Of a DNA stretch of 23,578 nt, positions 4,586 through 23,578 are shown piece after piece. The stretch is from a virus. Numbering within the stretch: the stretch's first letter is position 1; each line of letters begins with the position of its first letter. Position numbers and translations under genes: made by a program. A model generated the notes under the pieces. The model saw nothing but the letters and a program-made list of their open reading frames with translations. It was not told where the DNA came from and did not search any database. Where the stretch lies: IMG/VR virus record IMGVR_UViG_3300038417_000505, positions 1 to 23,578 of that record. One strand, given 5' to 3'.

Positions 4586-4586
4586 G

Positions 4587-5884: not shown

Positions 5885-5908
5885 GATCAACGAACCAAGG
5901 AGGGATTT

Positions 5909-7868: not shown

Positions 7869-7887
7869 AGATTATTTTGGCCGGCAT

Positions 7888-9053: not shown

Positions 9054-9691
9054 AAGAACATCCGATCATATTCAGCGGTCCCATGGTCAAGGCGATCCTG
9101 GACGGCAGGAAGACCATGACGCGCCGAATAGTTAAAAAGGCATGGGATGGTTTAACGTGGGCTGGCGATGTTCATCCTGCCCGTGTTGATGGGTGGATTG
9201 CCTGGTGGCCATCGGGAACTGCAGAGTTTACGAAGAGGGCATATGAACATGGATTTCCTTGTCCCTACGGCATCCCCGGCGACAGGCTGTGGGTATGGGA
9301 AGCATGGTGCCTACCTGATCCTACCGACAAACGGACAATTTGCTATAGGGCATCAGGTGATCCCGTAACGACTGGCGCAAAGTGGAAACCTTCCATTCAC
9401 ATGCCCGGCTGGGCTTCCCGCATCACGCTTGAGATCGTCAGCGTCAGGGTCGAGAGGTTGCAGGAGATAACGGAGGAAGGTGCGATTAAGGAGGGAATTA
9501 CAAAGATTGATTTTTATAGGCTGTTGGATGAACGGCAACGCACCGACCAGCTTGACCGCATTTTTGGCGGTAAATCTTTGCCTTACTACGTCAGGCAATT
9601 TGCTTCTCTTTGGGATTCCCTCAACGGCAAGAAGCATCCGTGGTCAAGTAATCCCTGGGTATGGGTAATAGAATTTAAAAAAATCAGCTAA
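9050..9691 (+). CDS. Conserved phage protein, ASCH/PUA-like (213 aa)
   Basis: The protein begins KEHPIIFSGPMVKAILDGRK then TMTRRIV. It continues with YGIPGDRLWVWEAW, KWKPSIHMPGWASRITLEIV, VRVERLQEITEEGAIKEGI and FASLWDSLNG...NPWVWVIEFK. This is the layout of a common phage family with an ASCH/PUA-like beta-barrel: an early 'GRK..TRR' loop, a central 'PGD.LWV.E' strand and a closing 'NPWVWVIEF' strand. ASCH-like domains are thought to bind RNA or modified nucleosides; the phage members have no agreed function. A helical insert at about 155-185 (IDFYRLLDERQRTDQLDRIF) is probably a lineage variation. ATG 9050 overlaps the previous stop. I am sure of the family look, less so of its name. Confidence 0.7.
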   Translation: MKEHPIIFSGPMVKAILDGRKTMTRRIVKKAWDGLTWAGDVHPARVDGWIAWWPSGTAEFTKRAYEHGFPCPYGIPGDRLWVWEAWCLPDPTDKRTICYRASGDPVTTGAKWKPSIHMPGWASRITLEIVSVRVERLQEITEEGAIKEGITKIDFYRLLDERQRTDQLDRIFGGKSLPYYVRQFASLWDSLNGKKHPWSSNPWVWVIEFKKIS

Positions 9692-9720
9692 TCAGCCGCA
9701 TCCCGCCGAAGACGGTTATT

Positions 9721-12153
9721 TTGGGCATCGCAAAAAAGCATCTTTCAGAGACCGATCGCAAAAACATCGCCAAGGATATCTTTAAAGTCACGTCCACCGA
9801 AGACAAAAAAGGCGAACTGCACGGCCTCTGCCCCATTCATTCGGAATCGAATCCTTCCTTTTCCTACAATTTCCGAAAAGACCAATACAACTGCTTTTCA
9901 TGCGGCGCCGCCGGCGATCTCCTGAAGCTCTGGAGCGAAGTCAACGGCCTTAATCAGATCGAAGGTTTCAAGGCATTTTGTGAAAAATTTGCTATCCCCC
10001 TTGGGGGGGATCAAAAACGGGAGCGCGCGGCGGCGAAGGGCACGGGAGGAGGCGAAGCGGAACCTCTCAGTCACGAGAAGACAATGGAAATGATGAATAA
10101 GGCGTGGGAGATGTTTCCCGCGTTGCCTGATCAATGGATCGCTCGTCTTGAAAAGACTCGCGGATGGTCCAGGAGGGTGATCGAGATACTCGATCTTCGT
10201 CTTGAAACACACCGCCTGACGAAGAAGGGCATTTTAATCAAATTAAAAACTCCGGAGAAAATCGCCATCCCGATCCGGGACTCGCTGGGCAGCCTAGTCA
10301 ACATTCGCCTGTATCATCAGGGCGCGAAGGAATATAAGATGATCTCCTTCGCGCGGTCGACGGGGTCATCGAGGCTTTTCCCGGCAGAACCGTTATATCC
10401 CGACGGCGAGGTCATCTTATCTGAGGGAGAGACGGATACGATTTGTGCTTTATCACTCGCGGTATATGGTCCCGATCGCGGCTTTAATGCCATTACGCAG
10501 ACTTCTAAGCTCAAGAACTGGCCTGTGGATCACCTGACTCCTTTCAAGGGCCGTGATGTGATCATAGCCTATGACGCTGATGAACCTGGCCAGAAATACG
10601 CTACTTTCGCGGCACAGGCGCTCATGGGCACGGCCAAGTCCATCCGGCTGATACAATGGCCATCCTTCATGGGGATCGATGAATCTGGCGCATATCCTGA
10701 GAAGCATGGGCAGGATCTGACGGATTTCTTCGTTCGACATGGGAAAACGATCGATGATTTCCGCGAGGTCGTCAAGCAAGCAAAGATTTTCGCGCAAACG
10801 GCGGCCACGTACACGTCGATCGATGACGCCGCCCCCGCGGGCCCTGAAATATTTTTTGCCCGGGGTGTCCATAAGGATCGCATGTCATTCAAGCCACGCT
10901 TGCTCGCAAACAAGATCCTGGGTGATCTGGCGTTGCTCTCAGATCCCGAGACGGGCTTAATGTATCGCTGGAACGATCATTACTGGGAAGATTTCGATGA
11001 GGACCACGTTCGAAATCTCTGCCTTAAATATCTGCATAATGAATCGCAAAAAAGCAGAGCGGAAGATGCCACCTACCAGGTCAAAATGCTCTGCACCATT
11101 CCCCATGGGCGGAAGGTCAATGACCAGGCGGATTGGATATGCCTCAAAAACGGGATGTTTAATCTGATCACATATCAACTGAAGCCGCACGATCGGGAAT
11201 TCTATTGCACATACTCGCTGCCCGTCTCTTTTGATCCGGATTCGGATAAGACGTGCACGCGCTGGCTCCTCTACCTGCAGCAAACTGTGAAAACCGCTGA
11301 GGCGATCGCGCAATTGCAGGAATTTCTGGGATACGTCTTAGTGCGGCATACAAAATTCGAAAAATGCCTGCTTTTGGTTGGGCCAGGCGCAGACGGCAAA
11401 AGCACGTTCCTGAAAGTGATGAAGGAGCTGGTTGGCGATGAAAATTGCGCGGCCGTGTCTTTTCAGGATCTCGAAGATCAGTTTCAGAGGTCATCGCTCT
11501 ATAACAAACTTCTCAATATCAGCACTGAGGTCGGCGCAAAGGCCATCGAGAGCCCTTATTTCAAGGCGATAACATCCGGAGACCCGATTAACGCCGCATT
11601 CAAGCATAAGAACACCTTTACCTTTTCATCATACTGCAAACTTGCCTTTGCGGCGAATCGCCTTCCCCGCGTGCTCGACAATTCGGATGGCTTTTTTCGC
11701 CGTGTTTTGCCCGTTCGTTTCAAGCGGCAATTTCTCGATGATGATCCCGACAAGGACCCGGAACTCTTTGAGGTTCTGAAAGGCGAACTTTCAGAGATCT
11801 TCTCCTGGGCGGTCGTGGGACTCGCCAGGTTGACGAAGAACAAGAAATTTACGATGGCCGAAGAGACCAGGTTGATGATGATGGATTATCGGCGCATCAA
11901 TAACCCGGTTCTCTGCTACGTCGACGATCAATGCGATATCGGCGATGATTACCAGGTCGCCAAGGAGGATTTGTACGATGACTACAAAAGCTACTGCGGA
12001 AAGAATGGGTACACGGCGCTGAATCGGGAGAACTTCTTTCGCGAACTCTATGTGGCCGTGAGCAATCTGAAGCAGTATCAGCCGCGCACGAATGGAATTC
12101 GTAAACGTGTTATCGAGGGGATTCAGGTCAAGTCCGTTCCTGAAAAGCACTAA
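9721..12153 (+). CDS. P4-type primase-helicase (CHC2 zinc finger, Toprim, D5_N, SF3 helicase)
   Basis: The 810-residue replication protein has a CHC2-type primase zinc finger (C37, H40, C58, C61 within LCPIHSESNPSFSYN and YNCFSCGAAGD). A Toprim-like domain follows (SEGETD 234-239 and AYDADEPG 283-290), then a D5_N region with QEFLGYV ending near 540. The superfamily 3 helicase has Walker A GPGADGKST at 554-562, an LNISTEVGAKAIES Walker B-like region and the arginine-finger segment FFRRV. Such fused proteins make primers, unwind the origin and often bind origin repeats themselves. The start TTG 9721 has no clear ribosome site and could be slightly off. The repeat array at 12259-12529 follows immediately, as expected for a replication module. 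Confidence 0.93.
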   Translation: MGIAKKHLSETDRKNIAKDIFKVTSTEDKKGELHGLCPIHSESNPSFSYNFRKDQYNCFSCGAAGDLLKLWSEVNGLNQIEGFKAFCEKFAIPLGGDQKRERAAAKGTGGGEAEPLSHEKTMEMMNKAWEMFPALPDQWIARLEKTRGWSRRVIEILDLRLETHRLTKKGILIKLKTPEKIAIPIRDSLGSLVNIRLYHQGAKEYKMISFARSTGSSRLFPAEPLYPDGEVILSEGETDTICALSLAVYGPDRGFNAITQTSKLKNWPVDHLTPFKGRDVIIAYDADEPGQKYATFAAQALMGTAKSIRLIQWPSFMGIDESGAYPEKHGQDLTDFFVRHGKTIDDFREVVKQAKIFAQTAATYTSIDDAAPAGPEIFFARGVHKDRMSFKPRLLANKILGDLALLSDPETGLMYRWNDHYWEDFDEDHVRNLCLKYLHNESQKSRAEDATYQVKMLCTIPHGRKVNDQADWICLKNGMFNLITYQLKPHDREFYCTYSLPVSFDPDSDKTCTRWLLYLQQTVKTAEAIAQLQEFLGYVLVRHTKFEKCLLLVGPGADGKSTFLKVMKELVGDENCAAVSFQDLEDQFQRSSLYNKLLNISTEVGAKAIESPYFKAITSGDPINAAFKHKNTFTFSSYCKLAFAANRLPRVLDNSDGFFRRVLPVRFKRQFLDDDPDKDPELFEVLKGELSEIFSWAVVGLARLTKNKKFTMAEETRLMMMDYRRINNPVLCYVDDQCDIGDDYQVAKEDLYDDYKSYCGKNGYTALNRENFFRELYVAVSNLKQYQPRTNGIRKRVIEGIQVKSVPEKH

Positions 12154-12543
12154 AAAAATGTTTTTTTGCGCGCTCTTCCCCCTTTCCCCTAGGATTTAAC
12201 GCGCCAAAATTGAAAATACCGGTCGATTTTAAGGAGAATTGTTCAATGATTTCAACACTGGCACAAGTGGAACAGGCGCGGCACAGGCAAAAAGGCGCCC
12301 ACCTGTGCCATTTTGGATATGATTTTATTGAGTTTTTAAGTGGTGGCACAGGTGGAACAGGCAAAAATCCACCTATTGCACATGCGCGCGCGCGCGCGGT
12401 AATTCGCTTTCTCTCCTTTAGAAATATCTGGATTATTATAAAAAACACCTGTTCCACCTGTGACAGAAGCGGAATGATTGACATTTCACCTGTGCCAGCC
12501 GCCTGTGCCAGCCTGTTCCACCTGTGCCAGGCAAGGGGATGAC
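12154..12543. other. Candidate replication origin with iterated 9-bp units
   Basis: This 390-bp stretch separates the primase-helicase from the next gene. It contains twelve copies of a unit close to TGG(C/A)ACAGG. Plus-oriented units start at 12259, 12268, 12279, 12344 and 12353. Reverse units start at 12302, 12448, 12457, 12489, 12502, 12512 and 12521. Paired units make 19-bp blocks: TGGCACAGGTGGAACAGGC at 12344-12362 is repeated exactly, inverted, at 12511-12529. Near copies are at 12259-12277 and 12446-12464. AT-rich segments (12311-12340 and 12420-12446) and a (CG)7 tract (12385-12398) lie between. P4 alpha-type primases bind iterated sites at their origin, so the placement fits. A 98-codon frame (12246-12542) with AAGGAG upstream runs through the repeats but has repeat-like composition. 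Confidence 0.65.
12377..12398. repeat. 22-bp alternating purine-pyrimidine tract including (CG)7
   Basis: TGCACATG at 12377-12384 continues as seven CG dinucleotides at 12385-12398, giving 22 strictly alternating bases. Such tracts can adopt Z-DNA under negative supercoiling. It lies at the centre of the inverted repeat-unit array, between the mainly plus-oriented left half and the reverse-oriented right half. Confidence 0.85.
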
Positions 12544-12909
12544 ATGAACCTCGATAAATTGATGGATAAATACGATCCATTGAAGGGGAAAGAACCCGAA
12601 CCTGCGGCCCCTGTTGGCCCGCAGTCCTGGAAGGACAGCGCCGCCGTCGTCCGCCTATCCGAATATATGAAGATGCACAATGACCGGGGGATTCACCTCT
12701 ACCAGAGAAAGGGCCGGCCTTATCTATTCTTCGATCCTGGCATAGCCGGGGAAGACAAAGATACTGAGCGCTGGAAGATAGCATTCAATACAACCGTTCT
12801 CTTCTTCGAGGCAGTCGATGATCTGGAATGCCTGATCTCGAAGGGCATGATCGATGTCCCGGTGCAAGCGCTTGCAAAAGCGCAGAAGGATAATGACTAT
12901 GCCATCTAA
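12544..12909 (+). CDS. Unknown phage protein (121 aa)
   Basis: ATG 12544 follows an AAGGGG-type ribosome site; upstream in-frame codons from 12478 are made of the repeat units and are not believed. The product starts MNLDKLMDKYDPLKGKEPEP, has a proline-rich linker, and then a mixed domain: DSAAVVRLSEYMKMHNDRGI, HLYQRKGRPYLFFDPGIAGE and a helix TTVLFFEAVDDLECLISKGM. No metal-binding or catalytic signature is seen, and I do not recognise the family. The stop overlaps the next gene's start region. Its place between the origin candidate and the packaging genes suggests a replication or early-late accessory role, which is inference from position only. Confidence 0.6.
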   Translation: MNLDKLMDKYDPLKGKEPEPAAPVGPQSWKDSAAVVRLSEYMKMHNDRGIHLYQRKGRPYLFFDPGIAGEDKDTERWKIAFNTTVLFFEAVDDLECLISKGMIDVPVQALAKAQKDNDYAI

Positions 12910-13264
12910 ACCAAAGAAGCAGTGTGGATATCCTGGCTGTCCTGCATTGACCGATGGCGGACGATGCGAAGAACATCGGCAGAAAGAGATAAGATTATAT
13001 GATGAACAACGTGGCAACTCTGGAAAACGTGGTTACGATGCGACGTGGCAGAAATTGCGGAAGATGAAGCTGGCAGCGGATCCCCTATGCGAGGAACATC
13101 TAAAGGAAGGGCAGGACGTGGCCGCGACTATGGTGCACCATATCAAGCCAATAGAGACGCACCCAGAATTGAGGCTGGTGTGGGATAATCTAATGAGTCT
13201 ATGCAATGATTGTCACGAAAGGAAGGAAACGCCCATCAGATGGGGAGGGGGCATAAAATCTTAA
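12899..13264 (+). CDS. HNH endonuclease, packaging-associated type
   Basis: ATG 12899 is preferred over ATG 12893 because AAGGA is 8 bases upstream. The 121-residue protein has an N-terminal zinc-binding cluster (C9, C14, C23, H26 in CGYPGCPALTDGGRCEEH) and a classical HNH fold. The fold shows DPLCEEHLKEG (C64, H67), VHHIKPIETHPELR (H80, H81), WDNLMSLCNDCHERKE (N97, C102, C105, H106). Small HNH proteins of this form sit next to terminase genes in many cos-type phages such as HK97 and assist terminase cleavage. Here it lies directly upstream of the small terminase, which supports that role. Confidence 0.88.
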   Translation: MPSKPKKQCGYPGCPALTDGGRCEEHRQKEIRLYDEQRGNSGKRGYDATWQKLRKMKLAADPLCEEHLKEGQDVAATMVHHIKPIETHPELRLVWDNLMSLCNDCHERKETPIRWGGGIKS

Positions 13265-13353
13265 AACAATTCGCCGGTTTGACCGTGTGCGCAGTCTCGC
13301 GTATGTGACCGCCCACTTATAGGTTTGATAGAACTGCCCCTTGGAAGAAGAAT

Positions 13354-13953
13354 ATGATTAAGCCATGTAAATACAAACCTTGCTCAAAAAACTTCGAGGG
13401 AAGGCCTAATAAGCTGTTCTGCTCGCCTAAATGCAAGAAATTGCATGAGATTTCTTTGAGGGGAAAACCAGAGAAGAAGAAAAGGCGCGGAAGCGCAGTA
13501 ATGTTGACCGGCGATATTAAAAAACCGCCCCTACTTGACGGTTACGCATCAGTTTTCTGGGACAAAACCGCCCTAGTTATCATTGCGAGGGGACATTTGA
13601 ACATTTTATCGGAGGATGCCTTCGCGGAACTATGCGACTTGGTTGCGCGTTTGCGGGATATAAACGCTGCCATCAATGAATCGGGCCGATCACTCCTCCA
13701 GGGAGGCGAGAAGGCGAGTGAAAAAACTGAAAATAAAGCCGATGCGAAACCCGAAGAGAGGGCAGATGTTGAAATTGGGGTCCTGAAGGAGAGCGCACTC
13801 TCCGACCTGAAACGCAAATATTCAAATCTCCTCTTGGTCTATTGCAAGCAGTTCTATCTCACGCCGCTCTCGAACCGCGGCAATTTCGACATCCCGGAGG
13901 GGAAGGAAAAGGATCCCCTGGAGGAATTTCTAAGAGGCAAGAATGAGAAGTAA
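13354..13953 (+). CDS. terS: Terminase small subunit, P27 family, with N-terminal zinc finger
   Basis: The 199-residue product begins with a Cys4 finger (C5, C10, C23, C27 in CKYKPCSKNFEGRPNK and LFCSPKCKK). The P27-type small-terminase body follows: VFWDKTALVIIARGHLNILS, EDAFAELCDLVARLRDINAA and SDLKRKYSNLLLVYCKQFYL with the family closing LTPLSNRGNF. A long acidic-lysine linker (about 115-145) separates the two helical parts. It recognises packaging sites and recruits the large terminase. The added zinc finger may contribute DNA binding. The start has GGAAGAAG close upstream. The 89-bp gap before it (13265-13353) shows no gene and no convincing promoter. The end overlaps the large-terminase start by 11 bases. 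Confidence 0.85.
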   Translation: MIKPCKYKPCSKNFEGRPNKLFCSPKCKKLHEISLRGKPEKKKRRGSAVMLTGDIKKPPLLDGYASVFWDKTALVIIARGHLNILSEDAFAELCDLVARLRDINAAINESGRSLLQGGEKASEKTENKADAKPEERADVEIGVLKESALSDLKRKYSNLLLVYCKQFYLTPLSNRGNFDIPEGKEKDPLEEFLRGKNEK

Positions 13954-15808
13954 GGCGCCGCACCCAACAAAGGAATATGCAGAGCATGTCTGCTGCGGAA
14001 AGATCCCGGCATCCAGATGGGTCCGCCTGGCGTGCCGGCGACATCTCGATGATCTGAAGAAATATCGGACAAGACGATCTTCCGGATTGTGGTTCGACAA
14101 GAAAGCTGCCCAGGACGCAATAGATTTTTTCCCGATGTTCCTTCGCTTCTACGAGGGGGAATTTGCAGGCAAGCCGTTCGTCCTGGAATTGTGGCAGCAA
14201 TTCATCATCGGTTCGATCGTGGGCTGGAAAATGGGAAAATATCGCAGATTCAGGACGGCATATCTCGAGATAGCGAAGGGGAACGGCAAAAGCCCCATGG
14301 CGGCTGGCATAGGCATCTACGGCCTTGTGGCAGACGACGAGAAGGGCGCGGAGATCTACTCGGCGGCAACAATGAGGGAGCAGGCCGGCATACTTTTCCG
14401 CGACGCGAAGGCATTTGTGGAAAGTTCGCCCTCTCTGCAGAAGAAACTGCATGTCGGCGTCGGCAACATCGACTACAAGCTAAACAACTCCTTTTTCCGA
14501 CCCGTGTCTTCAGAGCATAAAGGCTTAGATGGCAAACGGCCACACATCGCCCTGATCGATGAGATCCATGAACATCCGAACGCGACGGTGATCGACAAAC
14601 TCCGCCTCGGCGCGAAAGGGCGGCGCCAGGCTTTATTCTTCGAGATCACAAACGCCGGCTATGACCGCCAGTCGATCTGTTTCCAGCATCATGAATATAC
14701 CGAGAAGATCTTGGAGGGCATAATAGAGAACGATTCATGGTTCGGATACATGAGCGGTCTGGACGTTTGTGACAAGTGCCGAGGAGAAGGCAAGACCATT
14801 CCCCAGGACGGCTGCCCGGATTGCGATGACTGGATGGATGAAAAGACGTGGCCGAAAGCAAACCCTAACCTCGGCGTCTCGATCCAAATGTCATACATCA
14901 GGGAGCAGGTTGACGAGGCGACAAACATGCCCTCGAAGCAGAACATCGTCAAACGCCTGAATTTCTGCATCTGGACAGAGAGTGTTACGCGGTGGATCCC
15001 CTTTGATGTCTGGAATGCCTGCGCTTTTCCCGTGGATCCGGAAATACTCAGGGGCAGGACCTGTTATGGAGGGCTCGATCTGTCGTCGATATCCGATCTG
15101 ACTGCATGGCTAATGCTGTTTCCGCCGGTCAATCAGGGAAAACTATATGAGGTTATCTGCCGCTTCTTTCTTCCGGCCGATAATATGATGCAGCGCGTCA
15201 GACGTGACAAGGTCCCATACGACGTCTGGGCCAAGCAGGGATTCATCACACTGACTCCGGGCAACCTCATTGACTACAAGTTCATCATCGCGCAGATCCA
15301 GAAGGACATGGCCGATTATCGCATCGCGGAACTCGCCTTTGACCGCTGGGGATCGCAGAAGATCACGACCGATCTGCAGGACCTCGGCTTCGAGGTCGAG
15401 GGCAAGAGGACGCTTGTGCAGTTCGGCCAGGGCTTTGCATCGATGTCGGCGCCGACCAAGGAAGTCGAAAAAATGATCAAAGGCAAGGAACTGGCGCACG
15501 GAGGGAATCCGGTGCTGTCCTGGATGGTCTCCAACGTGGCGATCAGGACGGATCCGGCAGAAAATAAGAAACCGGACAAGGAAAAAAGCAAGGAACGCAT
15601 TGACGGTGCCGTGGCGCTTATCATGGCCGTGGGCCGGGCGATGCTGAGGGGCGGCCAGAAGAAATCGATCTATGAAAATCAGGGAATTCTTACTTTCGGT
15701 CAAGGAGGCGAAGATGGGAGAAGCGAAGAGGAACATGGAAAAGGGAATGATGCGGATGCAATACGGGAACCAGCAGATACAACTCGACCTGAGCCAGGCC
15801 GTCCATAA
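13943..15808 (+). CDS. terL: Terminase large subunit (Terminase_1 family) with zinc-ribbon-like insert
   Basis: This 621-residue packaging motor has an N-terminal ATPase: FVLELWQQFIIGSIVGW (79-95), a deviant Walker A EIAKGNGKS (109-117) and Walker B IALIDEIHEH (202-211). The C-terminal nuclease begins near CYGGLDLSSISDLTAW, with its first acidic residue in GLDLS. Between them, a Cys4 set (C276, C279, C291, C294: CDKCRGEGKTIPQDGCPDC) replaces a short loop found in relatives and may bind zinc. It packages DNA into the prohead through the portal. GAGGCAAGA precedes ATG 13943. The last 95 bases overlap the next gene in another frame, and the terminal 40 or so residues are low-complexity and probably a late extension past the family end near SIYENQGILTF. 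Confidence 0.92.
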   Translation: MRSKAPHPTKEYAEHVCCGKIPASRWVRLACRRHLDDLKKYRTRRSSGLWFDKKAAQDAIDFFPMFLRFYEGEFAGKPFVLELWQQFIIGSIVGWKMGKYRRFRTAYLEIAKGNGKSPMAAGIGIYGLVADDEKGAEIYSAATMREQAGILFRDAKAFVESSPSLQKKLHVGVGNIDYKLNNSFFRPVSSEHKGLDGKRPHIALIDEIHEHPNATVIDKLRLGAKGRRQALFFEITNAGYDRQSICFQHHEYTEKILEGIIENDSWFGYMSGLDVCDKCRGEGKTIPQDGCPDCDDWMDEKTWPKANPNLGVSIQMSYIREQVDEATNMPSKQNIVKRLNFCIWTESVTRWIPFDVWNACAFPVDPEILRGRTCYGGLDLSSISDLTAWLMLFPPVNQGKLYEVICRFFLPADNMMQRVRRDKVPYDVWAKQGFITLTPGNLIDYKFIIAQIQKDMADYRIAELAFDRWGSQKITTDLQDLGFEVEGKRTLVQFGQGFASMSAPTKEVEKMIKGKELAHGGNPVLSWMVSNVAIRTDPAENKKPDKEKSKERIDGAVALIMAVGRAMLRGGQKKSIYENQGILTFGQGGEDGRSEEEHGKGNDADAIREPADTTRPEPGRP

Positions 15809-15968
15809 GAAATGCGAGGCCTGCGGCTGCGAGTTCTTTGACAAGGTCTGCAGGATGTCCGTCATATCAAAACTGGCCGCGGGAAATCCGACCGGGAAGG
15901 ATGTCCCGGTAGAATTCTCGGCGCATTTGTGCCGGCAATGCGGACTCGAGTTTGGGAAGCCATTTTAG
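15714..15968 (+). CDS. Zinc-ribbon protein (84 aa)
   Basis: ATG 15714 is 6 bases after AAGGAGG and inside the 3' end of the large-terminase frame; an upstream ATG at 15672 lacks such a site. The protein begins MGEAKRNMEKGMMRMQYGNQ, then has a Cys pair in KKCEACGCEFFDKVCRM, the conserved-looking SKLAAGNPTGKDVPVEF and a second pair in HLCRQCGLEFG. The two CxxC/CxxCxC knuckles are about 40 residues apart, a typical zinc ribbon. Related small ribbons occur in many phage genomes with no settled function. Position in the packaging region may imply a role with the terminase or transcription. Confidence 0.7.
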   Translation: MGEAKRNMEKGMMRMQYGNQQIQLDLSQAVHKKCEACGCEFFDKVCRMSVISKLAAGNPTGKDVPVEFSAHLCRQCGLEFGKPF

Positions 15969-15992
15969 TCGGTGTTGAAATGAGGAGAGGTT

Positions 15993-16157
15993 ATGGATAA
16001 AGATAACGCATCATTACAGAAAGCCTTGGAAGATCATGGATTCTCCTGGGAAGAATATAAGCGGTATAAGGAAACGGGCAGCGGCCTCATATACGATGAC
16101 AGAATTCTCATAGATAGAATTGAAAATGAAATAAGATATCATAAGGAGGTCTCATGA
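15993..16157 (+). CDS. Small unknown protein (54 aa)
   Basis: ATG 15993 is preceded by GAGGAGAGG with a short gap, and the stop TGA (16155-16157) overlaps the next ATG as ATGA. The product begins MDKDNASLQKALEDHGFSWE and continues EYKRYKETGSGLIYDDRILI with a closing charged helix. It is strongly charged, soluble and probably helical. No family is recognised. The AAGGAGG site of the following HTH gene lies in its last codons, so the two are translationally coupled. It could be a partner or modulator of the HTH protein, judged only from that coupling. Confidence 0.65.
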   Translation: MDKDNASLQKALEDHGFSWEEYKRYKETGSGLIYDDRILIDRIENEIRYHKEVS

Positions 16158-16351
16158 CCGACCTTCCCGACAAGAAACTGTTTCGCGTCAGTGAAGTGGC
16201 CGCGTATTTCGACGTGACAGAAAGAACGGTCTACTTGTGGATTGAGCATGGCCATCTCAAGACTGAGGTGACGCCCGGCGGCCAGAAGAGAATTACCCGG
16301 GCGTCCATTGATAAATGCCGCTTTTCGCCCAAAGAAGAAAAAATAGTGTGA
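16154..16351 (+). CDS. MerR/excisionase-like winged HTH DNA-binding protein (65 aa)
   Basis: The 65-residue protein is almost entirely a MerR-type (HTH_17) DNA-binding domain. LFRVSEVAAYFDVTERTVYL (9-28) is the helix-turn-helix, WIEHGHLKTEV the following helix-strand and TPGGQKRITRASIDKC the wing. AAGGAGG lies 5 bases before the ATG. Similar domains occur in excisionases, in small activators and as the DNA-binding part of lambda-type small terminases (gpNu1). Three tandem 10-bp repeats begin at its stop codon and abut a near-consensus promoter for the head operon, so these repeats are the obvious binding-site candidate. An excisionase role is less likely because no integrase is nearby. Confidence 0.85.
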   Translation: MTDLPDKKLFRVSEVAAYFDVTERTVYLWIEHGHLKTEVTPGGQKRITRASIDKCRFSPKEEKIV

Positions 16352-16379
16352 AGTTTGCAGAAGTTTGCAGAAGTTTACC
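16350..16379. repeat. Three tandem 10-bp repeats (probable operator)
   Basis: GAAGTTTGCA at 16350-16359 and 16360-16369 are identical, followed by GAAGTTTACC at 16370-16379. The spacing is one helical turn, so all three present the same DNA face. They begin in the stop codon of the HTH gene and end 3 bases before the -35 element of the promoter at 16383-16412, covering about -69 to -40. Confidence 0.85.
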
Positions 16380-16382
16380 CCA

Positions 16383-16412
16383 TTGACTCGCTAATTTCAT
16401 CCCCATTATAAT
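16383..16412 (+). promoter_or_regulatory. Near-consensus sigma70 promoter for the head operon
   Basis: TTGACT (16383-16388, 5 of 6) and a perfect TATAAT (16407-16412) are 18 bp apart. Transcription would start near 16419, leaving a leader of about 70 bases before the portal start at 16489. The only nearby downstream genes are the head genes. The direct repeats just upstream suggest control by a DNA-binding protein, perhaps the one encoded immediately before. Confidence 0.8.
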
Positions 16413-16488
16413 CCCGCCATACAGTCAGTCATCCCGCCAATAGCAAGACTCGATTCGGTTTCAACGATCTTCAATCAGGACTATTTAT

Positions 16489-17802
16489 GTGAACATCCTC
16501 GGACGACTCAGGTATTTCTTCAAGAACATGATCTCTCTCACGGATCCCAAGGCCTGGGATCGCTCGCTCTGGAATCTTTTTGGCTCCCAGGCGCTTTCCG
16601 GAGAGAACGTCACCGAGCATACGGCGCTCACCTACGCGCCCGTCTGGAACGCAGTTTCCATCATCTCCGGAACGATAGCCGCTCTTCCCCTGCATCTGAT
16701 GCAGAGAAAGGAAGATTCCAAGCGCATTGCAGACGATCTTCCGGCGTATCGCGTCCTGCACGACCAGGCGAACCCCTTCATGACGGCGATGGCGTTCCGC
16801 GAGGTCATGACCGCGCATGTGCTCACCTGGGGCAACTGCTATGCAGAGAAGGTCCGCGACGGATACGGAAACCTGCGGGAACTCTGGCCGATAACCCCGA
16901 ATCGCGTGCGGATCCGGATGGAGAATGGGAATCTCGTCTATCGGGTCCGAGTGGGAAATGACAACATCGACCTGCCCCGGGAAATCGTCCTGCACGTTCC
17001 CGGCCTCGGCTTTGACGGCTTCCAGGGATATTCCGTGATCGCGATGGCGCGGAAATCCATCGGCCTCGGGGTGGCCCTTGAATCGTTCGGCTCCTTGTTC
17101 TTTGGCAACGGAACAAATCCGGGAATGGTTGTTTCTCATCCGCAGTCGTTATCCGCGCAGGCGAAAAAAAATATCGAGGACTCGTTAGGCAAGCAGCAAA
17201 GCGGTCTCGGAAAGGCCCACCGACTAATGGTCTTGGAAGAAGGAATGAAGGTCGAGAAGTACGGCATCCCTCCGGACGACTGCCAGTTCCTCGAAACCAG
17301 GGGATTCCAGATTCCCGACATCGCGCGCTGGTTCAACCTTCCTCCGCACAAACTGAAGGACCTCTCAAAATCTTCATTCAGTAATATCGAATCGGAGCAG
17401 ACGTCGTTCGTCATCGATACGCTGCTTCCCTGGCTCGTCCGCTTCGAGCAGAATTACAACATGCAGCTCCTGACTCCAAGTGAGAGGGCCCTTTCCGGCA
17501 GGGGCAGACTCTATTTCAAGCACATCGTTGAAGGCCTTCTGAGAGGCGACCATGCTTCCCGGGCGACCTTCTATAAGGAAATGTTCATGATCGGTGCGAT
17601 GTCCCAGAACGACATTCGCGAGAGAGAAGATATGGATCCGATAGATGGCGGCGATAAGTATTACGTGCCTCTCAATATGGTCGCAGTCGAAGATGTGGGG
17701 AAAGAGCCGGCGCCGCCGCCTGTCATCCCGGGACGGTCGCCTGCGCCAGCGCCAAAGAGGATCCCGATGCATACTACAAAGATTCACGAAATCGGAGGTT
17801 AA
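16489..17802 (+). CDS. Portal protein, HK97 family
   Basis: The 437-residue product shows the Phage_portal (HK97-type) pattern: ALTYAPVWNAVSIISGTIAA (45-64) with LPLHLMQR, HVLTWGNCYAEKVRDGYGNL (109-129 region), REIVLHVPGLGFDGFQGYSV, FQIPDIARWFNLPPHKLKDL and SSFSNIESEQTSFVIDTLLP. It forms the dodecameric vertex ring through which the terminase loads DNA. A proline-rich C-terminal tail (EPAPPPVIPGRSPAPAPKR) is disordered in appearance. The start is GTG 16489 with AGGA upstream; the ATG two bases before is followed at once by a stop. The protease gene begins 3 bases after its stop. Confidence 0.93.
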   Translation: MNILGRLRYFFKNMISLTDPKAWDRSLWNLFGSQALSGENVTEHTALTYAPVWNAVSIISGTIAALPLHLMQRKEDSKRIADDLPAYRVLHDQANPFMTAMAFREVMTAHVLTWGNCYAEKVRDGYGNLRELWPITPNRVRIRMENGNLVYRVRVGNDNIDLPREIVLHVPGLGFDGFQGYSVIAMARKSIGLGVALESFGSLFFGNGTNPGMVVSHPQSLSAQAKKNIEDSLGKQQSGLGKAHRLMVLEEGMKVEKYGIPPDDCQFLETRGFQIPDIARWFNLPPHKLKDLSKSSFSNIESEQTSFVIDTLLPWLVRFEQNYNMQLLTPSERALSGRGRLYFKHIVEGLLRGDHASRATFYKEMFMIGAMSQNDIREREDMDPIDGGDKYYVPLNMVAVEDVGKEPAPPPVIPGRSPAPAPKRIPMHTTKIHEIGG

Positions 17803-17805
17803 GCG

Positions 17806-18981
17806 ATGGCAGTCAAATTGAATTCAAAGGGAAAGGCCCACGCGGGCAGTCTGGTAGACGCCGGCAAGGTGGACAAGACAAGCAGTTGGTCATTTTCTGC
17901 GGATGATGGCAATAAGATCTTAGGCGACCCTCCCGACTGGAGTGAATATTCCAAGTGGCATCTTGGCATCGATCCCGACGCGAATCAAGAGACGAAGGCA
18001 GCATATCATTATCCCTTTGGAAAGAACGGCAAGGTCTACCGCTCTGCGCTCATCGCTATCAGGCAACGGGCCGCGCAACAGAGCGCGACCGATATTTACG
18101 ACGCCGCCGGTGTGCTGATCGACAAGATCGACGGCAATAAGGCCATGTCCTGGTATGAGATAAAGAACCAGGCCGATTCCTCTGAGATTTGGATCTATGA
18201 CGAGATTGGATATTGGGGCATCGGCGCGAAGGATTTCATCCAGGAACTGAACGCCGTGAAGAACAAGAAGATAGACATGCACATCAATTCCCCCGGGGGC
18301 GAGGTCTTCGATGGCAATGCCATTTATAACGCGATTAAAAACCATCCGGCAAAGGTCACGACTTACATCGACGGCATCGCCGCCTCCATCGCATCCGTGA
18401 TCGCCCTGGCCGGCGACAAGGTCGTCATGGCCGAGAATGCGATTTACATGATGCACAATCCGTTTGGCCTGGTCATCGGAAACGCGGACGATATGAGAAA
18501 GATGGCCGATATCCTGGACAAGATCTGCAATTCGATGATGGGGGCGTACGTCTCAAAGAGCGGCAAGACGTCAGATGAGATCAAGAGCCTTCTCGATGCG
18601 GAAACGTGGATGAGCGCCGACGAGGCGAAGCAGGCCGGATTCGTAGATGAGATCAGCGGCAAGATGGACATGGCTGCCTGCGCGAAATATTCACCCATTA
18701 TGATGAAACTGGGATTTAGGAAAATCCCGGAGAGCATATTAGGAAAGAGGCAGATGCCCACGGCAAGAGAAACGGAGCGGATCCTCCGGGACGGAGGTTT
18801 CAGCGCCAAGGCGGCAAAGACGATCCTTGCGGAAGGTTATACGGACAATCTTCGGGATGAAGACGAATCCGTCGCCGAACCTGCGGCAAGACAACGGGAC
18901 GTTGATTTGGGTTCCGCGGGAACGAAGGATGCGGTTAGCGAGCTGCTCGAGTTGGGCGATAAACTTACCGGAACGAACTGA
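17806..18981 (+). CDS. ClpP-type (S14) head maturation protease with N-terminal domain
   Basis: The protein has 391 residues. The central domain (about 125-285) is ClpP-like: INSPGGEVFDGNAIYNAIKN (160-179), IDGIAASIASVIALAGD with the nucleophile S194, and IYMMHNPFGL with H217. ETWMSADEAKQAGFVDEI closes the fold and holds the third-residue region. About 115 residues precede it, including WHLGIDPDANQETKAAYHYP and GKVYRSALIAIRQRAAQQ, a module also found in other phage head proteins but with no name I can give. The C-terminal 90 residues are charged and could act as scaffold or as the cleaved tail. It processes capsid proteins during prohead maturation. GGAGG lies 7 bases upstream of ATG 17806. 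Confidence 0.88.
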   Translation: MAVKLNSKGKAHAGSLVDAGKVDKTSSWSFSADDGNKILGDPPDWSEYSKWHLGIDPDANQETKAAYHYPFGKNGKVYRSALIAIRQRAAQQSATDIYDAAGVLIDKIDGNKAMSWYEIKNQADSSEIWIYDEIGYWGIGAKDFIQELNAVKNKKIDMHINSPGGEVFDGNAIYNAIKNHPAKVTTYIDGIAASIASVIALAGDKVVMAENAIYMMHNPFGLVIGNADDMRKMADILDKICNSMMGAYVSKSGKTSDEIKSLLDAETWMSADEAKQAGFVDEISGKMDMAACAKYSPIMMKLGFRKIPESILGKRQMPTARETERILRDGGFSAKAAKTILAEGYTDNLRDEDESVAEPAARQRDVDLGSAGTKDAVSELLELGDKLTGTN

Positions 18982-19003
18982 CTTTCAGGAGGAAGATAGA
19001 AAA

Positions 19004-20308
19004 ATGAAAACGATTACTCAATACAAACAGGAAATTAAGGACCTCATGAAGAAGATGAACGACATTGAGGCCAAGGCGACAGCGGAAAACCGCAACCTCA
19101 CAAAGGATGAAGTCGCATATTTCGCCAGGGTCAACGATGAGATCGAGGGCATGAAGGAGATGGTGACCCAGCTCGAGAGGAAAGAAGGGATAAACGTGGC
19201 GCTGTCGACGCCGTCCCGGCCTGCATCCGTTCGGGATGGAGATATGGGGCAATCTGAAAGAGAGAACAGAGACAGATTCTCAAGCCTTGGCCAGCAGCTT
19301 GTTGCGGTTATAGAAGCATGCCGTCAGGGCGGAGCGGTTGATCCGCGGCTCTTTAATGCGGCCGCAGGATTGAATGAGAGCGTTCCCGCAGACGGCGGTT
19401 TCCTTGTGCAGCCGGACTTTGCGCAGGAACTGCTCCAGGAGGCGATCAAGACGGGTATCCTGGCTCCGAGATGCCGTCCCCAGCCGATCAGCAGCAATGC
19501 GAATTCCATCAAGATAAACGGCGTTGATGAGACGTCGCGCGTATCCAGCCGTTTCGGCGGCATCGTGGCTTACTGGCAGAACGAAGCCTCGGAGAAGACG
19601 AAGAGCAAGCCGAAGTTCCGCCAGATCGAACTGAACCTCAAGAAACTGATCGGCCTCTGCTATGCCACGGATGAGCTCCTTAATGACGCAGCCGCACTTG
19701 AGGGATTCATCAGGAACGCGTTCCCGAATGAATTCGGTTTCCAGATCGACGATGCGATTCTCAACGGGAACGGCGCTGGACAGCCGCTTGGCATTCTCAA
19801 TGCCGGCTGTCTCGTCACCGTGAAAAAGGAAGCCGGCCAGAAGGCCGACACCATCGTGGCGCAAAACGTCATCAACATGTCGTCCCGGATATTCGCATCC
19901 AGCTACTTAAATGCGTCCTGGTACATCAACCAGATGACCCTTCCCCAGCTTTACACGATGTCGATCGCCGTCGGCACCGGCGGCCAGCTCGTATTTATGC
20001 CGCCAGGAGGAATTTCCGGGGCGCCTTACGGGATGCTTCTTGGCCGTCCCGTGGTTCCAATCGAACAGTGCGCCGCACTCGGCGACGTCGGAGATATCGT
20101 TCTCGCCGACCTGAACGGCTATATCCTGGCGCAGAAAGGCGGGATCCAGGCCGACATGTCGATACATGTGAGGTTCGAATATGATGAAAGCGTCTTCCGC
20201 TTCGTATTGAGAGTAGACGGCCAGCCCGTCCGTGCCTCCGCACTTACGCCGTACAAAGGCGGTCCGGATGCGACGCAGTCTCATTTCGTGGCGCTCGAGG
20301 CCAGATAA
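19004..20308 (+). CDS. Major capsid protein, HK97 family
   Basis: ATG 19004, with GGAGGAAG just upstream, gives 434 residues; longer in-frame starts lie inside the protease gene. The first 65 residues are a coiled-coil delta-like domain (QYKQEIKDLMKKMNDIEAKA then LTKDEVAYFARVNDEIEGMK). A linker leads to the HK97 fold with GGFLVQPDFAQELLQEAIKT, FRQIELNLKKLIGLCYATDE, DDAILNGNGAGQPLGILNA, GMLLGRPVVPIEQCAALGDV, and ESVFRFVLRVDGQPV at the end. The N-terminal domain is probably removed by the neighbouring ClpP-like protease during maturation. It is the main shell protein of the virion. A GC-rich palindrome follows the gene. Confidence 0.95.
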   Translation: MKTITQYKQEIKDLMKKMNDIEAKATAENRNLTKDEVAYFARVNDEIEGMKEMVTQLERKEGINVALSTPSRPASVRDGDMGQSERENRDRFSSLGQQLVAVIEACRQGGAVDPRLFNAAAGLNESVPADGGFLVQPDFAQELLQEAIKTGILAPRCRPQPISSNANSIKINGVDETSRVSSRFGGIVAYWQNEASEKTKSKPKFRQIELNLKKLIGLCYATDELLNDAAALEGFIRNAFPNEFGFQIDDAILNGNGAGQPLGILNAGCLVTVKKEAGQKADTIVAQNVINMSSRIFASSYLNASWYINQMTLPQLYTMSIAVGTGGQLVFMPPGGISGAPYGMLLGRPVVPIEQCAALGDVGDIVLADLNGYILAQKGGIQADMSIHVRFEYDESVFRFVLRVDGQPVRASALTPYKGGPDATQSHFVALEAR

Positions 20309-20320
20309 TTCTTAATCACC

Positions 20321-20340
20321 GCCGGGGCCGCGGCCCCGGC
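20321..20340. other. 20-bp perfect GC palindrome after the capsid gene
   Basis: GCCGGGGCCGCGGCCCCGGC is its own reverse complement and can form a very stable hairpin in RNA. No T tract follows; the next ribosome site (AAGGAGG) begins 8 bases later. It is more likely to stabilise or delimit the capsid mRNA than to terminate it. Confidence 0.7.
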
Positions 20341-20362
20341 CAACCAGAAGGAGGATATAACG

Positions 20363-21034
20363 ATGTTTGGAATCAACGGAAAATATACCATAGTGCCGTT
20401 TACATTCCCCTACAGCCATGACGGGGCGATTGCAGGCGACATATTCAGCATGAAGAATTACAACAATGCCGACATCTGGATCATACTCGGCGCGATCACA
20501 AAGGCGGGTGCAATAACCCTTGAGCAGGGCGTAAGCGTCAGCTCGGCGGCCACGGCCCTGGCCTTTACCGAATATTACCGCTCAGGCCATATCCTGAAGT
20601 ACAAGTCCCCTTCAACGGGCGTGGCGGCGGCAGCCGGAGAAACCGTCACAGGCGCCGGCGGCGGAATAAGCTACGTGGCCGAAGATCTTGGAGACAGGCT
20701 GGTATGCTACAGCTTCAACGGCACGACCTTCGTCGACGGCGAGACATTGACGTTCTCCGGCGGCAAGACCGCCAAGGCCAATGGGATCCAGGTCAATGAG
20801 GACATCATGGTCCACATGAGTCTGGCTGCGGGCGTCAATACCTTCCAGCCGGATGTGGTTGCAAACCGCATGTACTGCATTCCGATCAACAGCGCGATGC
20901 TGAATGTGGCCGGCGGTATGGACTGTGTCGAACTGAATATTGCCGACCTTGACACAACTCTCTATTCCTGTTTCGCAGTTCTCCATGGGGCGCGATTTAT
21001 TGGAGACCATCCGGAGACGGCGCTTTACGATTAA
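20363..21034 (+). CDS. Putative capsid-associated (decoration-like) protein (223 aa)
   Basis: AAGGAGGA precedes ATG 20363 with a short gap. The product begins MFGINGKYTIVPFTFPYSHD and is mostly predicted strand: IWIILGAITKAGAITLEQGV, VAAAAGETVTGAGGGISYVA and LVCYSFNGTTFVDGETLTFS. A C-terminal NRMYCIPINSAMLNVAGGMD then LHGARFIGDHPE follows. I do not recognise a named family, although the style (non-globular N-terminus, beta-rich, no catalytic motif) suits a virion structural protein. Being directly downstream of the major capsid gene and between two hairpins suggests a decoration or head-stabilising protein. That is inferred from location. Confidence 0.6.
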   Translation: MFGINGKYTIVPFTFPYSHDGAIAGDIFSMKNYNNADIWIILGAITKAGAITLEQGVSVSSAATALAFTEYYRSGHILKYKSPSTGVAAAAGETVTGAGGGISYVAEDLGDRLVCYSFNGTTFVDGETLTFSGGKTAKANGIQVNEDIMVHMSLAAGVNTFQPDVVANRMYCIPINSAMLNVAGGMDCVELNIADLDTTLYSCFAVLHGARFIGDHPETALYD

Positions 21035-21041
21035 CCGGTGA

Positions 21042-21069
21042 ATGGAGCGGTCCGAAGGGATCGCTCCAT
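21042..21069. other. 12-bp hairpin with GAAG tetraloop between head genes
   Basis: ATGGAGCGGTCC (21042-21053) pairs with GGATCGCTCCAT (21058-21069), one pair being G.U, around the loop GAAG. It is followed within 6 bases by the AAGGAGG of the next gene and has no T tract. It probably affects mRNA stability or translation of the downstream gene rather than ending transcription. Confidence 0.7.
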
Positions 21070-21090
21070 CATCCAAGGAGGAACGCAAAA

Positions 21091-21282
21091 ATGCGAAAAG
21101 ATCAAATCGAAACCGTAAAATTCCTCATCAAGCAGGAAATCGCCCTGGCTCTCGAGAAGTTCAAGATGGAGCTGAAGGCGGAGTCCGCCGGAAGTCCTAT
21201 TTCGGCGCAGACGGCAATCAAGACTGATGGGGAAGGCGAAAAAGATAAGTGTCACAGGCAATCCGGCGACGGATGCCTCTAA
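21091..21282 (+). CDS. Small helical protein (63 aa)
   Basis: A strong AAGGAGG precedes ATG 21091 by about 9 bases. The first 31 residues (MRKDQIETVKFLIKQEIALA then LEKFKMELKAE) form a clear amphipathic, coiled-coil-like helix. The rest is polar and glycine/lysine-rich (GSPISAQTAIKTDGEGEKDK) with two Cys near the end. It overlaps the possible upstream start (21227) of the next gene in another frame. No family is known. Its place in the head operon suggests a small virion or scaffold accessory. Confidence 0.55.
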   Translation: MRKDQIETVKFLIKQEIALALEKFKMELKAESAGSPISAQTAIKTDGEGEKDKCHRQSGDGCL

Positions 21283-21310
21283 AGCAAAAGACGAGAAGGA
21301 GGAAGAAAAA

Positions 21311-21829
21311 GTGAGAAATTATCCCCCATCAACAATTGAGACGATCAGCGATCTCAAACTGGGTCTGAGAGTCGAAACTGCGATCTTGGCGAATGCTACG
21401 TATCTGAAGACCGGCGGAGTGCAGACCGAATTATTCAATGTCTTCGGACGAATCTTCGTGCATCAGCTCTTTTTGGAGATTGTCGTCGCCTGTTCCGCAA
21501 ACGCCACACAGGTTCTCTTCAACTGCACGTTCACGACGCCTGTGATCGCGGCTAACCCGATGTGCGCCAAGTGCGCCGCCATCACCAGCCTCGGCCAGGG
21601 CGGAAGGATCGTCTGGGTCGGCGGAGCAGTGGCGACAGCCGCGGTGATCACAGATTCGCCGGGCCTTTCCGATGTGCTCCCGACATCGCCACAGATTGTG
21701 GGCGGCCAGGACTTCGTCGGAACCATCGGTATCCTGTCCTCTGATGCAACCCAAGGCAGCGGCAGTTTCAAGGCCGTTCTGCACTACACGGCCGGCAGTG
21801 ATGGAGCGTACGCAGAAGCGAAACTATAA
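21311..21829 (+). CDS. Unknown virion-type protein (172 aa; 200 aa if started at 21227)
   Basis: GTG 21311 is preceded by AAGGAGGAAG, making it the best start. ATG 21227 is in frame and would add a charged N-terminus (MGKAKKISVTGNPATDASKA...), but it has no ribosome site and overlaps the previous gene. The body is hydrophobic and strand-rich: RNYPPSTIETISDLKLGLRV, NVFGRIFVHQLFLEIVVACS, NPMCAKCAAITSLGQGGRIV and SGSFKAVLHYTAGSDGAYAE. A CxxC occurs at its centre. No recognised domain. The context (head operon, before a terminator-like hairpin) makes a structural role likely; the start remains open. Confidence 0.6.
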   Translation: MRNYPPSTIETISDLKLGLRVETAILANATYLKTGGVQTELFNVFGRIFVHQLFLEIVVACSANATQVLFNCTFTTPVIAANPMCAKCAAITSLGQGGRIVWVGGAVATAAVITDSPGLSDVLPTSPQIVGGQDFVGTIGILSSDATQGSGSFKAVLHYTAGSDGAYAEAKL

Positions 21830-21859
21830 AGACGATAACTGAACCGCAGGCATTCCCCG

Positions 21860-21899
21860 GGCGGGGTGATTGCTTTCCTCCGTCGCCCCGCCTTTCTTT
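21860..21899 (+). terminator. Hairpin with T-rich tail closing the head-gene block
   Basis: GGCGGGG (21860-21866) pairs with CCCCGCC (21886-21892), extendable by a U.G pair, and is followed by TTTCTTT. It sits in the only sizeable gap between the capsid-side genes and the three signal-peptide genes, 16 bases before their first ATG-side ribosome site. Termination may be partial because of the interrupted T tract. Confidence 0.6.
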
Positions 21900-21915
21900 C
21901 AAAGAGGACATGAAT

Positions 21916-22404
21916 ATGAAAAAAATTACCGCAATGATTATTTCCATCATCTTGACCGTTATGTTGATGGCCTCAAATGCATGGGCAGTCGCAGGATCAT
22001 GCGTCCAGACTCCATATACATACGGTCCCGGAAGTTTTGTGAAAGTCGTTTTTGTCTGTACCGGCGATTCGACAGACGGATCCATACCGACGCAGACCGT
22101 CGGTTCGGACATTATGGATTTGATAACGGGTTTCTATTGGCTCGCTTCAGTCAAGGCATATCACACGCCGGGTGGAACAGCGCCGGATGCGGCCGATGTC
22201 GCAGTGTTGATGAATGGCCAGGATCTGCTCGGAGGCAAAGGCGCTAATCTAATCCATCCGACGGCGACTTATGACGTCGTGCCATATAGTTCCTTTATAT
22301 CATCATATCGATATCCGCCGATAACTTCGACGATCACTGTGACGGTATCCAACCAGGCGACGGATAGCGCGAATTACAGCATTGAATTGATTTTTTCGAG
22401 GTAA
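21916..22404 (+). CDS. Sec signal-peptide protein with a phage-virion-like body (162 aa)
   Basis: ATG 21916 has GAGGAC about 6 bases upstream; ATG 21910 is too close to it. Residues 1-24 (MKKITAMIISIILTVMLMAS, ending AWA) form a clear Sec signal peptide with cleavage before V25. The mature part is beta-rich: VKVVFVCTGDSTDGSIPTQT, DLITGFYWLASVKAYHTPGG, DVAVLMNGQDLLGGKGANLI, ITSTITVTVSNQATDSANYS. Its order (PGGTAP, D..L...G.DLLGG, closing TVTVSN) resembles a family of non-secreted phage structural proteins I know from head-tail regions. A signal peptide on such a protein is unusual. It could be an exported homologue displayed on the host, or the body may simply converge. Confidence 0.7.
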   Translation: MKKITAMIISIILTVMLMASNAWAVAGSCVQTPYTYGPGSFVKVVFVCTGDSTDGSIPTQTVGSDIMDLITGFYWLASVKAYHTPGGTAPDAADVAVLMNGQDLLGGKGANLIHPTATYDVVPYSSFISSYRYPPITSTITVTVSNQATDSANYSIELIFSR

Positions 22405-22410
22405 GCAGAC

Positions 22411-23142
22411 ATGAAAAAAATCAAAATCATTCTTGCAATTTTATCGATCTTTTTTACTTTCGGGACCGCATCTGCCATTCCCCCTATGCCGGCAGGCATA
22501 GGTAGCGGTCTTCCCTATTCCGCAGGTATTGCCGCCAACCTTCCCGGGTCTTGTTCCGCCCCGGCGATCTATTATGCTACGGACACGGGCGCATATTATC
22601 AGTGCGGTTCTGACGGCACGTTCGCCCTTTCCAGCGTTCCCAATGCCGCTGACGGCTCTCGGCAACTGCTAATGGGAAATAATTCGACTTTCTCGCCAAC
22701 GGCCTCAACCTATGGCCTTGTCTTCGTGGCAGGTGTCCCAAAGTTTATTGTGAATGGGGCATTGCAGACTGCCTTGACAAAGGCGCAGGTCTTCTCCAAC
22801 TGCACGACGGTGAAGGCCCTGGTCGCCACAGATGATTTCCCCGTGGCAATATTTCCTTATGCCATCACAATTACGGGCGTGAGGATCTATCATATCGGAT
22901 CGACCGACCTGCAGGGTCAGTTCGATGAATGCACCGGCACGAGTGGAGTATGTACTTCTCTGACACCTGTGGATGTAGACATAGACGCCACGGTCGCAAG
23001 TGTCTGGACTGCTAATACCTCTGATGGCGGTGTACTCGATAACCCCGGCATCGCGGCGAATAACGGCATCTGGTGGCATACGACTTCGGTAACGGGGACG
23101 AATACCTTTGCGACAATGTGTTTTTATTACACGATAGATTGA
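22411..23142 (+). CDS. Sec signal-peptide protein with fibre-like segment (243 aa)
   Basis: GAGG lies about 10 bases before ATG 22411. The signal peptide MKKIKIILAILSIFFTFGTA-SA ends before I23. The following stretch (about 54-71, YYATDTGAYYQCGSDGTF) resembles the 'YYATDTG..Y...G.W' phrases of tail fibres and other phage surface proteins. The C-terminal half is beta-rich with Cys pairs (FDECTGTSGVCTS) and ends GIWWHTTSVTGTNTFATMCF. It starts 6 bases after the previous signal-peptide gene and is followed by another, so the three form a cluster. It is exported to the periplasm or beyond by inference from the signal peptide. No enzyme motif is seen and no family name can be given. Confidence 0.7.
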   Translation: MKKIKIILAILSIFFTFGTASAIPPMPAGIGSGLPYSAGIAANLPGSCSAPAIYYATDTGAYYQCGSDGTFALSSVPNAADGSRQLLMGNNSTFSPTASTYGLVFVAGVPKFIVNGALQTALTKAQVFSNCTTVKALVATDDFPVAIFPYAITITGVRIYHIGSTDLQGQFDECTGTSGVCTSLTPVDVDIDATVASVWTANTSDGGVLDNPGIAANNGIWWHTTSVTGTNTFATMCFYYTID

Positions 23143-23150
23143 GGTGAGAT

Positions 23151-23578
23151 ATGAAACGACACCTGTCCATATTTTTCAGTCTCGTGATTCTTTTGTCTGC
23201 GTCACTTTGCCCTGCTGAGGAAATCCAACTTGCCAAGATGGTCGTCGGGTCGGGTGCGACGGGCGGCGTATGTACCATTGACAATCAGACCCTCCTGATT
23301 GACAGGCTTACGACAGCCACGGACGCGAGCAATAATGCATGGACGGCGACGAAAATTACAGTCACGGCAGATTCTACGATTACTGAATATGTTATTCGTG
23401 AACAACGTGCCGCAGGTGGGGGAACAGCATCTGCAATGATTTACTCTCATGATGCAGGAAATGACTGTCCCCTTGCCCTTGTAACGGGCACATCAGTAAC
23501 GAATCCGACCTTGCAAACAAGTATGACGAACGACACATACGTTCTCGCAACACCGACACAGCTAACAGGAACAACATA
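23151..23578 (+). CDS. Third Sec signal-peptide protein, 3' end outside window
   Basis: ATG 23151 has GAGGTGA close upstream, and the frame is open to the end of the window (142 residues visible). The signal peptide MKRHLSIFFSLVILLSASLC-PA likely ends before E23. There is no lipobox, because the residue before C20 is Leu and the spacing is wrong. The mature part is strand-rich with Cys in GGVCTID and NDCPLAL: WTATKITVTADSTITEYVIR, GGGTASAMIYSHDAGNDCPL, TSMTNDTYVLATPTQLTGTT. It is laid out like the two preceding proteins (short signal peptide, beta-rich mature part) with no obvious sequence identity between them. It is probably co-expressed with them. Function unknown. Confidence 0.7.
   Translation, partial: MKRHLSIFFSLVILLSASLCPAEEIQLAKMVVGSGATGGVCTIDNQTLLIDRLTTATDASNNAWTATKITVTADSTITEYVIREQRAAGGGTASAMIYSHDAGNDCPLALVTGTSVTNPTLQTSMTNDTYVLATPTQLTGTT

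Follow-up and report, generated by a model that had tools for sequence, protein, structure and literature searches.

In the virus record IMGVR_UViG_3300038417_000505 from IMG/VR, a gene for a 65 amino acid MerR-like helix-turn-helix (HTH) protein, three tandem 10 bp repeats and a near-consensus promoter follow each other directly ahead of the head genes. The stretch that was analysed, here called the window, comprises positions 1 to 23,578 of this record. It is likely that these elements together form a late head-gene switch, in which the small protein, oligomerised on the repeats, would activate the head operon. The array, its conservation, its geometry and its co-occurrence with the HTH gene are apparent from the sequences compared. 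An earlier sequence-only reading of the window had proposed a compact late-gene switch at this place, and the proposal has gained support from the conserved contiguity of the parts, from the likeness of the protein to BldC and Xis, and from a correlation between repeats and proteins, with binding and the direction of control being presumed. The features concerned are the following.

13354 to 13953, + strand: small terminase, TerS (Terminase_4 E=5.7e-6, phrog_83 E=2.6e-15)
13943 to 15808, + strand: large terminase, TerL (TerL_nuclease E=5e-48, TerL_ATPase E=4.3e-30)
16154 to 16351, + strand: gene for the 65 amino acid MerR-like/HTH_17 winged helix-turn-helix (wHTH) regulator (Pfam HTH_17 E=1.6e-8; phrog_66 excisionase/transcriptional regulator)
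16342 to 16349, + strand: AATAGTGT, an extension ahead of repeat 1, containing an AGTGT common to several relatives
16350 to 16359, + strand: repeat 1, GAAGTTTGCA (sequence reading, Tandem Repeats Finder, tandem score)
16360 to 16369, + strand: repeat 2, GAAGTTTGCA (same three sources)
16370 to 16379, + strand: repeat 3, GAAGTTTACC (same three sources)
16383 to 16388, + strand: -35 hexamer TTGACT, 3 bp past the array end, as in six other loci
16407 to 16412, + strand: -10 hexamer TATAAT after an 18 bp spacer (promoter scan and geometry measurement)
16419, + strand: predicted transcription start, placed 7 nt downstream of the -10
16489 to 17802, + strand: portal protein gene with a GTG start, first in the head operon that would be controlled (Phage_portal E=7.9e-101)
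17806 to 18981, + strand: ClpP-type head maturation protease (CLP_protease E=2.6e-37)
18827 to 20308, + strand: HK97-type major capsid protein, as listed (Phage_capsid E=3.4e-52); the true start probably lies downstream of the listed one

The TGA stop codon of the HTH gene overlaps repeat 1, and repeat 3 is followed by CCA, the -35, 18 bp and the -10, a promoter that matches the consensus at 11 of 12 positions. Given a start near 16419, the array covers -69 to -40. The sequence-only reading had described the repeats, the overlap with the stop codon, the 3 bp gap, TTGACT-N18-TATAAT and a span of about -69 to -40, and all of these are found where it placed them. The array has a tandem score of 26 out of 30, a value reached in none of 300 locally shuffled 23.6 kb windows (mean of the maxima 18.9, highest 24), and the second-best separate site in the window scores 20. 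It is also the top-scoring entry listed for the window by Tandem Repeats Finder. The tandem-score scan covered the window and the sister contig described below, and neither has a second array of comparable score. The gap upstream of the portal gene is 137 bp, the widest between 12854 and 23578 in the chosen set of ORFs.

The genes in this part of the window are, in order, HNH, TerS (Terminase_4), TerL, two small ORFs, the HTH_17 protein, the array with its promoter, portal, ClpP protease and HK97 capsid. The large-terminase operon upstream presumably co-transcribes the HTH gene. A sister contig of 39.4 kb (IMGVR_UViG_3300018020_000011) is near-identical to the window; window positions 1-7798 and 7851-23578 overlap it at both ends with 99.96-99.97% identity, and taken together the two sequences imply a circular map of about 39.45 kb. 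The 52 nt in between (7799-7850) are absent from the sister contig. Other repeats were seen elsewhere in the window. In and past the gap after the primase/helicase gene (12243-12530) there is a family of ∼19 nt direct and inverted repeats (CTGGCACAAGTGGAACAGGC and variants), which appears origin-like. A 28 nt inverted repeat, ATGGAATTGCTTACTGCGTGGATTGCGG, is found at 3378-3405 and 5017-5044 (96% complementary, 1.6 kb apart) and could mark a rearranged or invertible segment. A palindromic element, TCATTCCCGCGAAGGCGGGAATCCAG, occurs in two copies that are 90% alike (1359-1388 and 3886-3915), and we take it to resemble chromosomal repeats of the REP/dRS3 type.

The 65 amino acid protein is a short MerR-like/HTH_17 wHTH lacking a dimerisation coiled coil. 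Its AF2 model is a winged HTH (pLDDT 85.7), and the nearest solved structures in Foldseek are BldC-DNA complexes and the Xis of Pukovnik. Owing to the shortness of the protein the E-values are modest (0.004-0.03); the BldC match has a probability of 1.0 and a TM score of up to 0.76 by target length. A profile search of PDB sequences finds the same two proteins, Pukovnik Xis (4j2n, 4e-11) and BldC (6amk, 1.8e-7). In some relatives there are two adjacent HTH_17 genes (2308-2592 and 2586-2780 in locus L013; 7849-8040 and 8081-8245 in G007:C193).

BldC has been shown to bind 9 bp direct repeats as head-to-tail multimers (PMC5859096). Like the phage protein, Streptomyces BldC (6AMA, 6AMK), which gives the best Foldseek matches, is a MerR-like wHTH of about 65-70 amino acids with neither a dimerisation nor an effector domain. 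The phage protein may share its head-to-tail mode of binding to direct repeats. Unlike the phage protein, BldC is a chromosomal developmental regulator with 9 bp sites of loose consensus, whereas the putative sites here, three in the window, have a period of 10 bp throughout the family and belong to one phage promoter. Pukovnik Xis (4J2N) and RdfS belong to the same wHTH group and oligomerise on DNA; RdfS assembles into head-to-tail filaments and acts as an activator at some promoters (PMC11963761). The present system differs from them in that the site lies at a head-gene promoter and that no Phage_integrase or Resolvase match is found in this phage, as discussed below.

In the relatives, all of which are metagenomic, the array belongs to a conserved module. 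Among the first 13 HTH homologues, nearly all close ones that adjoin a portal gene show a recognisable array. A set of 80 portal homologues and a few HTH loci already found was split according to the presence of an HTH gene directly upstream. Where the HTH gene is present (38 loci), the best score for a three-copy tandem is highest at period 10 (1.90 versus 1.20-1.54 at other periods), whereas the 36 portal loci without a nearby HTH gene have no such peak (1.44); p<=0.05 is reached in 22 of the former and 5 of the latter. Two further HTH scans with closer sub-alignments, pooled with the earlier loci, gave 111 unique downstream regions, 73 with a portal gene downstream and 38 without, some of them closely related to one another, so that the counts are not fully independent. 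The mean z of the 73 loci is 2.55 at period 10, whereas the means for periods 6-9 and 11-16 lie between -0.32 and 0.46, and z>3 occurs in 44% of the loci at period 10 and in 0-4% at the other periods from 6 to 16. When no portal follows, z>3 is found in 5% of the 38 and there is mostly no array. Since the period-10 signal is gone when either partner is absent, the array goes with the pair of HTH gene and portal, not with either alone. Over half of the 73 loci do not reach z>3, and the array is degenerate or missing in some of them. Synteny of HTH gene, repeats and promoter, proposed as a check in the earlier reading, is kept across divergent relatives; among relatives with the HTH gene, where it expected the repeats, they reach z>3 in 44% of the loci next to a portal and are mostly lacking away from one. 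The portal starts can also be compared: TTG or GTG predominates in loci that have the HTH gene (54 of 72 by automatic call), ATG in portals without it (20 of 33). A tblastn search with three family members gave no match in 50,697 deposited phage records. In the GTDB collection only two genome contigs matched, one from a Rhodobacteraceae MAG and one from a Deltaproteobacteria MAG, and 291 genomes from the class of the latter yielded no further match.

The repeat unit itself varies from phage to phage. In the window it is GAAGTTTGCA, and other examples are TTTCATAAAT (L154), TTAGCACCAT (L171), CATTTCACGC (L210), TACTCCAGTG (L163) and TTGTTACAAT (L049). The more alike two HTH proteins are, the more similar are their repeat units (Mantel-type r=0.25, p=0.001). 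This is what recognition of the repeats by the protein would predict, although shared ancestry also contributes to it.

The position of the arrays relative to the promoter is also conserved. With motifs chosen by eye and measured afterwards, all 7 direct arrays with the window's type of repeat (the window, L004, L008, L009, L011, L014 and L032) leave a gap of exactly 3 bp to the -35 and of 26-27 bp to the -10, and the inverted arrays of L013, L030 and L006 lie 20, 30 and 30 bp upstream of a perfect TTGACA with an 18 bp spacer. As 20 and 30 bp are one repeat unit apart, these offsets point to a role for the face of the helix. The AGTGT stands 5' of repeat 1 in the window, L004, L011 and L032, and its mirror, ACACT, is found in the three inverted arrays. 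Where the promoter call is good, well-scored arrays are in most cases placed upstream of the -35 and do not cover the promoter. A spacer of 18 bp is the most frequent (21 of 34 loci; 15 of 23 with z>1.5), where 17 would be optimal, and the -35 elements beside direct arrays are weak in the relatives. A CTTTACA in L049 and L052 was considered as a -10 and rejected, as the promoter scan calls it a -35.

From these features we infer activation rather than repression. The same protein and array could repress the head operon, with a filament on the repeats that blocks or traps the polymerase until the protein is diluted or displaced, and this reading is unlikely, though the most probable of the alternatives. 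The window promoter is close enough to the consensus that it might fire unaided, which also counts against activation, and the window by itself cannot separate an activator from a repressor. BldC-type proteins are able to repress as well. The comparative evidence for binding is neutral as to direction, and RdfS represses its own promoter (PMC11963761). On the other hand, the arrays are mostly upstream of the -35, with the closest group fixed at 3 or at 20/30 bp as expected of a contact with polymerase; the relatives have poor -35 elements and long spacers, and a repressor made together with the terminase would oppose head synthesis. Contact with the polymerase from upstream is therefore favoured by the upstream position, the fixed gaps and the 18 bp spacers, and the geometry would fit it better than steric repression, though it does not prove the direction of control.

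In the activating switch that we prefer, the terminase gene cluster would yield the 65 amino acid protein as its final product. Arranged head to tail along one face of the helix, as with BldC or Xis, copies of this protein would occupy the three 10 bp repeats, and the bound oligomer would recruit or remodel RNA polymerase at the adjoining promoter, a contact by which portal, protease and capsid genes would be switched on. With the HTH gene expressed at the end of the terminase cluster, heads would follow terminase. Binding, oligomerisation, activation and timing are what we infer here.

Other roles for the protein fit less well. It might act, like Q of lambda or AlpA of Pseudomonas aeruginosa, as an antiterminator that is loaded at the promoter, and not as an activator of initiation. 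AlpA does regulate lysis genes positively after loading at a promoter (PMC7969949, PMC9371919), but it was rejected as a model since it has a Q-like fold and an element between -35 and -10, while the sites here are upstream of the -35; the + strand from promoter to portal has no terminator-like site listed either, and we regard this reading as improbable. A further alternative, raised in the sequence-only reading, was that the array is a packaging site resembling the R sites of cosB and the HTH protein a terminase subunit like gpNu1. gpNu1 has a MerR-like winged helix domain, and the HTH gene adjoins the terminase genes. The main support for this reading is removed by the presence of a separate TerS (Terminase_4/phrog_83) at 13354-13953, distinct from the HTH protein. 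The arrays are tied to promoter and portal and not to terS, portal relatives without the HTH gene have no period-10 signal, and gpNu1 is absent from the significant sequence matches of the HTH profile in the PDB search. The order HNH-TerS-TerL, too, suggests a cut site upstream of terS, and a packaging site here is very improbable. An excisionase acting on repeats at an attachment region is hardly credible in spite of the excisionases among the best PHROG and PDB relatives, as neither of the two families searched for, Phage_integrase and Resolvase, has a match in the window or the sister contig (together the ∼39.45 kb circle), and the arrays go with the portal gene.

The layout of the proposed activating switch is reminiscent of late-gene switches in which Ltr (phi13) and Alt (TP901-1) activate late genes from a regulator gene directly upstream of the promoter, with activator sites at about -107 to -42 (phi13) or -76 to -32 (TP901-1) (PMC13123087). 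As in the Ltr/RinA/ArpU/Alt systems, a regulator gene lies directly upstream of a structural-gene promoter, with direct repeats at the 3' end of the gene (PMC13123087). Unlike here, the regulators in those systems are ∼130 amino acids long and drive terminase and head genes; the present one has 65, is of the HTH_17/BldC type and is located between terL and portal, so that the terminase genes precede the switch. Its Pfam and PHROG matches are only to HTH_17/MerR/excisionase and generic HTH families and not to the Ltr/RinA/ArpU family. The layout is thus analogous, while the regulator appears unrelated by family searches and is not an Ltr member.

There may be a second layer of control in the relatives. 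In 34 loci with a reasonable promoter call, the Shine-Dalgarno/start region of the portal gene was compared with the 18 nt segment that begins 2 nt upstream of the -10. Half of these segments (50%) are complementary to it at p<=0.05, and 53% rank within the top 5% of the intergenic 18-mers by this measure; the complementarity had been noticed before it was tested, the test set overlaps the loci in which it was noticed, and the promoter calls are predictions. Examples of such pairs are GTATAATACCGTC with GGCGGTATTATGT (L040) and TATAATGTCCCGC with GCGGGGTATTATG (L094), and others are found in L009, L013, L154, L147, L079, L088 and more, with sequences that differ by phage. By prediction, promoter-initiated RNA leaves the start region more accessible than read-through RNA does, by >0.1, in 17 of 31 loci, and less accessible in 1. 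In the window this hairpin is absent (z=0.7). A similar principle is known from T4, where the start regions of genes e, soc and 49 are sequestered in read-through transcripts (PMC3014915). Our proposal, which concerns about half of those relatives that have a promoter call, is like this in that the start region would be sequestered in upstream-initiated transcripts, and unlike it in that the sequestering arm reaches into the -10 or borders on it. The complementarity is possibly a lock on read-through translation in these relatives. Put together, and with rather less than an even chance of being right in full, this would be a two-layer lock on head genes: a BldC-like mini-regulator with a co-diversifying 10 bp repeat code would activate the portal promoter, and in many members the complement between -10 and start would silence read-through mRNA, so that only mRNA from the activated promoter is translated. 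Such a lock would be widespread and so far undescribed in uncultured phages.

Late-gene control has been worked out for few phages. Here, an apparently unrelated regulator is found in the layout of the Gram-positive Ltr switches in dozens of metagenomic phages. As the regulator has only ∼65 amino acids and its putative sites are easily read, the pairing of protein and repeat is directly testable, and the family is a possible source of compact activator/promoter pairs. If the switch works as proposed, BldC-like binding of direct repeats would reach from bacterial development to the timing of phage genes.
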